Positions 11,724-12,656 of a stretch of 64,000 bases of DNA are shown here, one piece after another. The DNA lies in assembly GCF_039566955.1 (NCBI RefSeq), contig NZ_CP154796.1, forward strand, positions 5,270,001 through 5,334,000, read 5' to 3'. A program made the position numbers and the translations under genes. This DNA comes from Micromonospora sp. DSM 45708. Its GTDB lineage: Bacteria > Actinomycetota > Actinomycetes > Mycobacteriales > Micromonosporaceae. Numbering within the stretch: the first letter of the stretch is position 1; each line of letters begins with the position of its first letter. The notes under the pieces are model-generated. The model was given only the letters and a program-made list of their open reading frames with translations. It was not told where the DNA came from and made no database searches.

Positions 11724-12098
11724 CTAGCGGACGACGACGGCGCGCGCTGACCCCGCGTGCGACGCGATCGCCGCCGCCGCGGCGCTGTGCGACGCGATCG
11801 CCGCCGCCGCGGCGAAGCCGAACGCGCCGCCGGCCACGGCCGGCAGGATGGTCACGCTGTCGCCGTCGTTGAGCTTCGCGTCGAGCGCGCCGAGGAAGCG
11901 GACGTCCTCGTCGTTGACGTAGACGTTGACGAACCGGTGCAACGCGCCGGCGTCGGTGACCAGCCGGCCCCGCAGGCCGGCGTGCCGGGAGTCCAGGTCG
12001 GTGAGCAGGTCGGCGAGCGTGTCGCCACTGCCCTCGACGACCTTCGCGCCGCCGGTGTAGCTGCGCAGGATGGTGGGGATGCGAACCTCGATGGCCAT
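11724..12098 (-). CDS. cysO: CysO sulfur-carrier protein with a 33-residue tail after the GG motif
   Basis: Ubiquitin-like ThiS/MoaD-fold carrier whose C-terminal glycine thiocarboxylate donates sulfur to CysM. Residues 1-91 match Cys[18 protein letters not shown] at the start and [12 protein letters not shown] at 80-91, where the protein normally ends. Here 33 further residues follow, mostly alanine, with a repeated decapeptide [10 protein letters not shown] / [10 protein letters not shown] encoded by a 30-bp tandem repeat. The terminal GG is therefore masked unless the tail is removed. The JAMM peptidase Mec is encoded just upstream and is a plausible processor, as for QbsE/QbsD-type carriers. 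A GGAG about 12 bases ahead supports the ATG. Confidence 0.9.
11757..11814. repeat. 30-bp tandem duplication inside the cysO 3' end
   Basis: Two identical 28-base copies (11757-11784 and 11787-11814) separated by two bases, giving a 30-base period and an in-frame ten-residue repeat. They lie after the GG codons of cysO, so the duplication lengthens the tail without disturbing the carrier fold. Confidence 0.9.
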
Positions 12099-12167
12099 GG
12101 TGTCTCGTGCTCCTCGTTCAGGGTCGTGCCAGGTGACGGGCAGGAAAGGGCGTGCCGGCGCTGGGGT

Positions 12168-12656
12168 TCAGCGGCCGGAACACTCGTAGTCGACCGTCGC
12201 CGGGCTCTGCCCGAACATGTAGGACTGGACGGCGTTCGGGTCCACGGCGGCGTCCACGATCTCGACCGGCTCCTCGGTGACCACCCCGTCGACGATCCGG
12301 AAGGAGCGGATCTCCTCGGTGTCGGGCTCACGGGTGGAGACGAGCAGGTAGTGCGCACCCGGCTCGCCCGCGAAGGAGACGTCCGTGCGGGACGGGTAGG
12401 CCTCCGTCGCGGTGTGCGAGTGGTAGATGACGACCGGCTCCTCGTCGCGGTCGTCCATCTCGCGCCAGACCCGCAACTGCTCCATCGAATCGAACTCGTA
12501 GAACGTCATCGAGCGGGCGGCATTGTCCATCGGGATGTGCCGGGTCGGGGTGTCGCCGCCGGCGGGACCGGCGACCACGCCACACGCCTCGTCCGGGTGG
12601 TCCCGGCGCGCGTGGGCCACGATCGCGTCGATGATCGACCGGTCGATGCTCAGCAC
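12168..12656 (-). CDS. mec: JAMM metallopeptidase, CysO-cysteine hydrolase
   Basis: Zinc peptidase of the JAMM/MPN family, 162 residues, which in mycobacteria cleaves cysteine from the CysO-cysteine adduct. The JAMM motif is complete: Glu23 in HPDEACGVV and H79-S-H81 with Ser89 and Asp92 in YHSHTATEAYPSRTD. The GTG start has a TAGTGT hexamer seven bases upstream and no Shine-Dalgarno, which suggests a leaderless transcript covering mec, cysO and cysM. Because the local CysO has a tail beyond GG, Mec could have a second job as its processing protease; that is inference. Confidence 0.94.
   Translation of the reverse strand: MLSIDRSIIDAIVAHARRDHPDEACGVVAGPAGGDTPTRHIPMDNAARSMTFYEFDSMEQLRVWREMDDRDEEPVVIYHSHTATEAYPSRTDVSFAGEPGAHYLLVSTREPDTEEIRSFRIVDGVVTEEPVEIVDAAVDPNAVQSYMFGQSPATVDYECSGR

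Follow-up and report, generated by a model that had tools for sequence, protein, structure and literature searches.

A conserved, repeat-bearing tail beyond the GG end of the sulfur carrier CysO in Micromonospora, and its proposed removal by the JAMM peptidase Mec

How can a sulfur carrier be charged at a C-terminal diglycine that its gene does not place at the C-terminus? This question is raised by the cysO gene of Micromonospora sp. DSM 45708, which was analysed within a 64,000-nucleotide stretch of the genome (the window; contig NZ_CP154796.1, positions 5,270,001 to 5,334,000). In Mycobacterium tuberculosis, according to PMC3227635, CysM takes sulfur from the thiocarboxylate of CysO and Mec frees cysteine from the resulting CysO-cysteine. 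The M. tuberculosis protein ends at GG, as its chain in 3dwg_C stops at the residue matching Gly91, whereas CysO of the window has 33 further residues that would have to be removed first; the tail is thus an addition relative to the studied protein. The genes lie on the minus strand from 13502 to 10748 in the order clpS, a DUF2017/AosR-like gene, mec, cysO and cysM, with mec just upstream of cysO and cysM just downstream:

12168..12656, minus strand: mec, JAMM metallopeptidase and likely processing enzyme (PF14464, E 1.9e-31; nearest solved sequence 2kks_A)
12381..12422, minus strand: JAMM motif HSHTATEAYPSRTD (HxHx7SxxD), Mec residues 79-92 (sequence motif)
11724..12098, minus strand: cysO, tailed 124-residue sulfur carrier of the ThiS/MoaD fold (ORF; PF02597, E 1.4e-17, residues 5-91; PDB sequence matches 4n6e_B and 3dwg_C)
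11826..12098, minus strand: CysO core, residues 1-91, with the end VAGG (GG invariant in 253/253 unique genes; pLDDT block means 91-98 for residues 1-80)
11727..11825, minus strand: CysO tail, residues 92-124, predicted to be removable; proximal AFGFAAAAA conserved, distal part variable (comparisons; helix 92-115 at low confidence)
11757..11814, minus strand: 30-bp tandem repeat in the cysO tail, coding for 20 residues (TRF, 1.9 copies, 100% matches; units more alike within than between genomes)
10748..11713, minus strand: cysM, cysteine synthase (PALP; PF00291, E 1e-66), starting 10 nt past the cysO stop

The arrangement corresponds to the CysO-CysM-Mec pathway of M. tuberculosis (Rv1335 and Rv1336, with Mec being presumably Rv1334), in that the three homologous genes stand side by side, the core has a GG end and the genome encodes a MoeZ-type activator. 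By context and family, the mec product is the predicted ortholog of the CysO-cysteine hydrolase; the preliminary description had placed a JAMM peptidase just upstream of cysO, and both the PF14464 match and the motif HSHTATEAYPSRTD bear this out. The single MoeZ-type activator combines ThiF (PF00899) and rhodanese (PF00581) domains (G000:C1:250661-251365), and three weaker ThiF matches in the genome all fell under the cut-off. Prok-JAB (PF14464), the one JAB family covered by the search, gave a single match in the 7.0-Mb genome, which is Mec itself. Two more ThiS-family proteins of this genome (L034 and L035) both have a bare GG end. CysO of the window belongs to its family by fold (ThiS/MoaD-like, with GG at residues 90-91), by its cysM and mec neighbours and by the activator. 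A free C-terminal GG as translated, which it lacks, occurs in only 48 of 253 unique orthologs and was therefore not treated as defining the family. It does have the features of a capped carrier, namely residues after GG and a neighbouring JAMM gene with an intact HxHx7SxxD motif. The curated models for SAMP1 and desampylase scored below their cut-offs (NF041918, 52.7 against 60 bits; NF041370, 74.5 against 130 bits).

The cysO frame is open, running through a 91-residue core that ends TILPAVAGG into a 33-residue Ala-rich tail and a TAG stop. The internal duplication previously noted in this tail is plainly visible in the DNA, where TRF detected a period of 30 bp in 1.9 copies with a 100% match (11757-11814). 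An AlphaFold2 model of this CysO, made with 35 relatives as input, has a confident core, followed by a helix at residues 92-115 and tail pLDDT block means of about 45-61; these values are too low for placement of the tail, and the model fits an exposed tail that could be cut, without proving it. The GC-rich repeat region of the cysO transcript (window 11712-11830) folds slightly better than shuffled sequences do (z -1.74, compared with -0.79 for a control region elsewhere in cysO).

To place the tail in its phylogenetic setting, 276 loci were reduced to 253 unique genes: 16 loci whose best CysO-like frame scored below 290 were dropped (ThiS/MoaD-type paralogs and the partial L093) and seven duplicates were merged, and a further rule, that the alignment reach Gly91, excluded no loci. 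A CysO match is present in 151/151 genomes of the genus. The comparison of CysO C-termini in related genomes that had been suggested at the outset was run on 50 of these 151 genomes (the 30 best matches and 20 of the weakest-ranking ones), and not one of the 50 genes stops at GG: 47 have extensions of 20-50 residues, and the remaining three have 2, 8 and 15. The tail in Micromonospora humi is the same as in genome G072 of the genus. Together with the open frame, the occurrence of one and the same tail start in many other genomes of the genus confirms the 33-residue extension. Among other Micromonosporaceae (76 unique genes from 41 genera, each represented by one to several genomes chosen among the matches listed), 68/76 genes encode residues after GG; eight have a GG end, nine have 1-5 extra residues, four have 6-11, 41 have 12-19 and 14 have at least 20. 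A start of the form A[FL][GA] with at least 12 residues was found in 52/76 genes and, by our own tally, in 25/41 genera. The typical family form is ALGFAAAAALLGR, and the named genera with such tails are Actinoplanes, Asanoa, Hamadaea and Dactylosporangium.

The tail is therefore a trait of the genus and of much of the family, not of a single genome, and its length is not fixed. In a tree of Mec, CysO core and CysM from 116 loci, built by a quick method and with many weak branches, the motif tail needs 8 changes, compared with a mean of 32.9 after shuffling. This pattern fits one gain followed by several losses or decays (e.g. L038, L052 and L159), a single gain not being proven by such a tree. 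L038 and L052 end in GG and L159 ends in GG-AR, so that the tail appears to have been lost or shortened repeatedly.

Residues after GG are common beyond the family as well. Elsewhere in the class, 127 unique genes from other families comprise 40 with a GG end, 61 that continue for 1-5 residues, 10 for 6-11 and 16 for at least 12. GG-MA, GG-MR and GG-MV are frequent in one large genus, probably Streptomyces, and GG-AR and GG-SR occur elsewhere; among the named loci, the single Streptomyces entry (L320) has GG-APGRNDAT. Almost without exception, GG is followed by A, S, M, G or C. Outside the family this first residue is S in 32, A in 27, M in 19, G in six and R in three of 87 genes, and A, G, S, M and C together account for 84/87 first residues versus 45% of the remaining tail residues (nominal binomial P 3e-25, a guide only, the genes being related). 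Among named loci (the best 80 of 573, which may repeat organisms of the other set, so that the two sets were not summed), 60 have residues after GG, starting with A in 32, C in 13, S in eight, M in three, T in two and G in two. The 13 GG-C loci of these 80 (L303, L307, L308, L312, L313, L315, L316, L322, L325, L326, L342, L347 and L353) have a single Cys after GG and come from Modestobacter, Blastococcus, Geodermatophilus and Nocardioides; other Modestobacter and Blastococcus CysO and both Klenkia CysO have a GG end. As translated, such a GG-C CysO equals the CysO-cysteine adduct hydrolysed by Mec in M. tuberculosis (PMC3227635). As a separate matter, the CysO of L352 (filed as Rhodococcus rhodnii) and L354 (Kibdelosporangium persicum) are nearly identical, which could reflect a mislabelled or contaminated record.

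The pattern of substitution divides the tail in two. In 48 Micromonospora genes with tails of at least 13 residues, pN/pS is 0.239 for the core but falls to 0.039 over the 13 codons at the core end, lower than in any other stretch measured in this set; it is 0.263 for tail codons 1-9, where changes are mainly synonymous (pS 0.367 versus pN 0.096), and 1.49 for codons 10-13, a value for which length changes partly spoil the underlying alignment. Eight Actinoplanes-type genes gave 0.099 for tail codons 1-12 versus 0.208 for the core. Tail and core are alike (0.355 and 0.364) in a family-wide set of 52 tailed genes, which is partly biased because it was selected by A[FL][GA] at tail residues 1-3. 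A value of 0.012 for tail codons 1-10 of 32 AFGF genes was discarded as circular, since the genes had been selected by that motif. The selection pattern thus indicates that the tail start is kept as protein and that the remainder is nearly free. In the 26 genomes with a pair of repeat units, the two units of one genome show 3.3 differences per 30 bases, versus 6.4 for units of different genomes, and none of 2000 shuffled pairings gave a difference as low as that observed within genomes; the duplication therefore keeps recurring or being homogenised.

Mec accompanies CysO almost everywhere. Where the upstream flank reached at least 900 nt (it was too short in 63 of the 253 genes, nine of which are tailed by at least six residues), a Mec gene on the same strand with an intact HxHx7SxxD motif adjoins 125/125 genes with a tail of at least six residues, 30/33 with 1-5 residues and 31/32 untailed genes. 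For the four without an adjacent Mec (L185, L187, L202 and L206), Mec was matched at another place in the genome. All 80 named loci (the best 80 of 573) have an adjacent intact Mec, and among 246 genomes of the class a CysO-like match was found in 200 and a Mec match in 195. Since Mec is needed for cysteine release anyway, this co-occurrence shows just that the supposed processing enzyme is available; because Mec also stands beside untailed CysO, it proves nothing by itself about Mec as the cutter. Mec of the window (12168-12656) and of most Micromonosporaceae aligns to about residue 160, which is 20-25 residues beyond other families. A link between this longer C-terminus and the CysO tail was considered and rejected: among the matches listed, those reaching 159-162 include several untailed loci, and tailed Actinoplanes-type loci stop near 138-139.

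HcyS/HcyD and PdtH are further examples of pro-carriers, with residues after GG and opening by a protease. Like QbsE/QbsD, they belong to secondary-metabolite gene clusters and have short caps. Such QbsE-type systems differ from the primary cysteine synthesis with a long tail seen here, but QbsE/QbsD resembles CysO in being a pro-carrier with extra residues after GG that a protease opens (PMC6006322 cites QbsD as the example). The same paper takes QbsD as its model and uses the term capped for two carriers of Streptomyces platensis, PtmS2 (GG-MV) and PtmS3 (GG-C). Thioplatensimycin formation there depends on the JAMM gene ptmS1, which is clustered with ptmS2: without ptmS1 the thioacid product was lost, whereas strains lacking only ptmS2 still made thioplatensimycin, a result attributed there to redundancy (PMC6006322). 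We infer that PtmS2 is a CysO ortholog. PtmS2 and PtmS3 with PtmS1 share with the present CysO the residues after GG and an adjacent JAMM gene, but their caps are of 1-2 residues, whereas the CysO tail has 33 and is conserved and repeat-built. Two other papers describe MoaX of M. tuberculosis, cut between Gly82 and Ser83 before working (PMC4326299), and a Deinococcus MoaD-MoaE fusion that DRJAMM cleaves (PMC8832034). In these proteins a carrier part is followed by more protein, as in CysO here, and is cut to free the C-terminal glycine; what follows GG in MoaX and DRMoaD-MoaE is a functional subunit of an enzyme, whereas in CysO it would be a disposable Ala-rich tail. The principle of the mechanism is therefore already published for capped PtmS2/PtmS3 and the JAMM protein PtmS1, and what is new is the conserved, repeat-expanding tail and the self-copied GG tails found elsewhere. 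The literature searched, in which subscription journals were thinly covered, yielded no description of the long Micromonosporaceae tails, and the cysO met there for Micromonospora is an unrelated gene of the same name. Searches on capped sulfur-carrier proteins with JAMM peptidases returned PMC6006322 alone, and those on QbsE, HcyS and the like returned nothing related by title.

The tail is best read as part of a pro-carrier that a JAMM peptidase opens. CysO is probably a pro-protein, with Mec first exposing GG and later releasing cysteine; we infer the cleavage, its site and Mec as its enzyme from the observed tail, its conservation, its selection pattern and the gene context. CysO would be translated as a ubiquitin-like core ending in GG and a dispensable tail that hides the carboxylate, the same one that MoeZ must adenylate and thiocarboxylate. 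Mec would recognise the folded core and GG and cut between GG and A, freeing this carboxylate. MoeZ would then load sulfur onto the freed GG, CysM would form CysO-cysteine from the thiocarboxylate and O-phosphoserine, and Mec would cut a second time to release cysteine, these steps being assumed here from M. tuberculosis. Mec could do both jobs because tailed CysO and CysO-cysteine share one bond, the amide after GG with a small residue beyond, and the distal tail may drift and expand by 30-bp duplications because it is thrown away. A loose helix may form at the tail start, which much of the family conserves. GG, although internal, is invariant in 253/253 unique genes, which supports this proposal, and the first residue after GG seems to fit the Cys-bearing natural substrate of Mec (PMC3227635). 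Several points count against it. Repeated loss or shortening suggests that the tail is not needed, the conserved tail start exceeds the needs of a passive cap, and the residue after GG is Arg in 3/87 genes outside the family and Thr in 2/60 of the extended CysO among the best 80 of 573 named loci. The precedent in Streptomyces is also mixed, in that loss of ptmS1 removed the product but loss of the capped carrier gene ptmS2 did not. Tails that end in a second VAGG (L134, L238, L297 and L338) could also let the uncut form be charged.

The tail might instead be cut after GG by another cellular protease, with Mec just releasing cysteine. The presence of Mec beside untailed CysO leaves room for such an enzyme, as does MoaX, whose cutter after GG is not named in PMC4326299, but we consider it unlikely: PF14464 has a single match in the genome of the window, the residues found after GG agree with the natural Mec substrate, which bears Cys there, and in Streptomyces the product ascribed to capped carriers was lost once the JAMM gene ptmS1 had been deleted (PMC6006322). 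A role in expression, with the tail delivering ribosomes to the start of cysM (translational coupling) or acting as an RNA or DNA element, is improbable. In the 50 Micromonospora loci the distance from the cysO stop to cysM is indeed 9-14 nt irrespective of how long the tail is, but L159 holds the same spacing with a 2-residue tail, for which reason the tail as a coupling spacer was rejected, and some untailed relatives also have short gaps (5 nt in L038 and L052, up to 75 nt in others). The repeat region folds only slightly better than shuffles (z -1.74 versus -0.79 for the control), which makes a weak candidate for an RNA element, and the mostly synonymous change in tail codons 1-9 (pS 0.367, pN 0.096) speaks against a nucleic-acid function.

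Tailed CysO could also be the active form, with the internal GG unused, or CysO could have another task here. Some CysO elsewhere have tails ending VAGG, so that an uncut chargeable form is conceivable there, but of the 50 Micromonospora proteins 45 terminate in R and one in G, none ends in GG, the internal GG never varies, and thiocarboxylation occurs on the C-terminal glycine (PMC6006322 and PMC3227635); we regard this explanation as very improbable. The preliminary description had itself warned that a sequencing error might hide a stop after GG. This is excluded by a tail start common to many other genomes, and error, frameshift or pseudogene formation in general, for which no support was found in the comparative data, is refuted by that shared start together with purifying selection and an intact operon, leaving it a negligible chance.

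Some relatives, in the Frankia group and in other families, carry a tail that repeats the carrier's own C-terminus. The copy is exact in L113 and L130 of the Frankia group (30/30 and 27/27 bases); CysO of Frankia alni appears among the proteins tabulated in a nodule proteogenome study (PMC8951365). In L134, L238, L297 and L338 the second VAGG is the protein end, and there are 3, 4, 4 and 2 base differences with the peptide unchanged; as the copied stretches were selected for an identical peptide, this constancy is partly built in (13 base differences in total). The L121 tail contains the VAGG unit several times over. Tails with a GG end make up 5/34 of the non-AFGF tails of at least five residues versus 0.84 expected from glycine content, an excess that rests on small numbers and related lineages. 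Because the CysO tail of the window ends in Arg, the idea of two usable GG ends is not relevant to it. In L104, a MoaD/CysO-like domain ending VAGG is followed in frame by 137 further residues, possibly a carrier fusion that needs cleavage; the extension presumably resembles a PaaI-type thioesterase.

Extended beyond Micromonospora, the pro-carrier proposal leads to a broader and distinctly tentative picture, which we think rather unlikely to hold. Mec may mature CysO as well as release cysteine in many actinobacteria, the first job gating the second. A new CysO would enter the Mec queue resembling loaded CysO-cysteine, literally so where GG-C is encoded. The gene end would then be free to grow, into an Ala-rich re-duplicating tail in Micromonosporaceae or into a second copy of its own C-terminus in the Frankia group and others. 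The four carriers that end with this copy (L134, L238, L297 and L338) might then be charged at either GG.

If maturation by Mec is correct, a peptidase known for product release would also be a maturase, and tailed CysO expressed heterologously without Mec would be a dead carrier. The tails form a natural substrate series (GG-C, GG-MA, GG-SR, GG-AFGF and others) with which the tolerance of JAMM peptidases for residues beyond GG could be probed. A bare GG end, as in M. tuberculosis CysO, may be the less common state, at 48/253 unique genes in a sample leaning to Micromonosporaceae.
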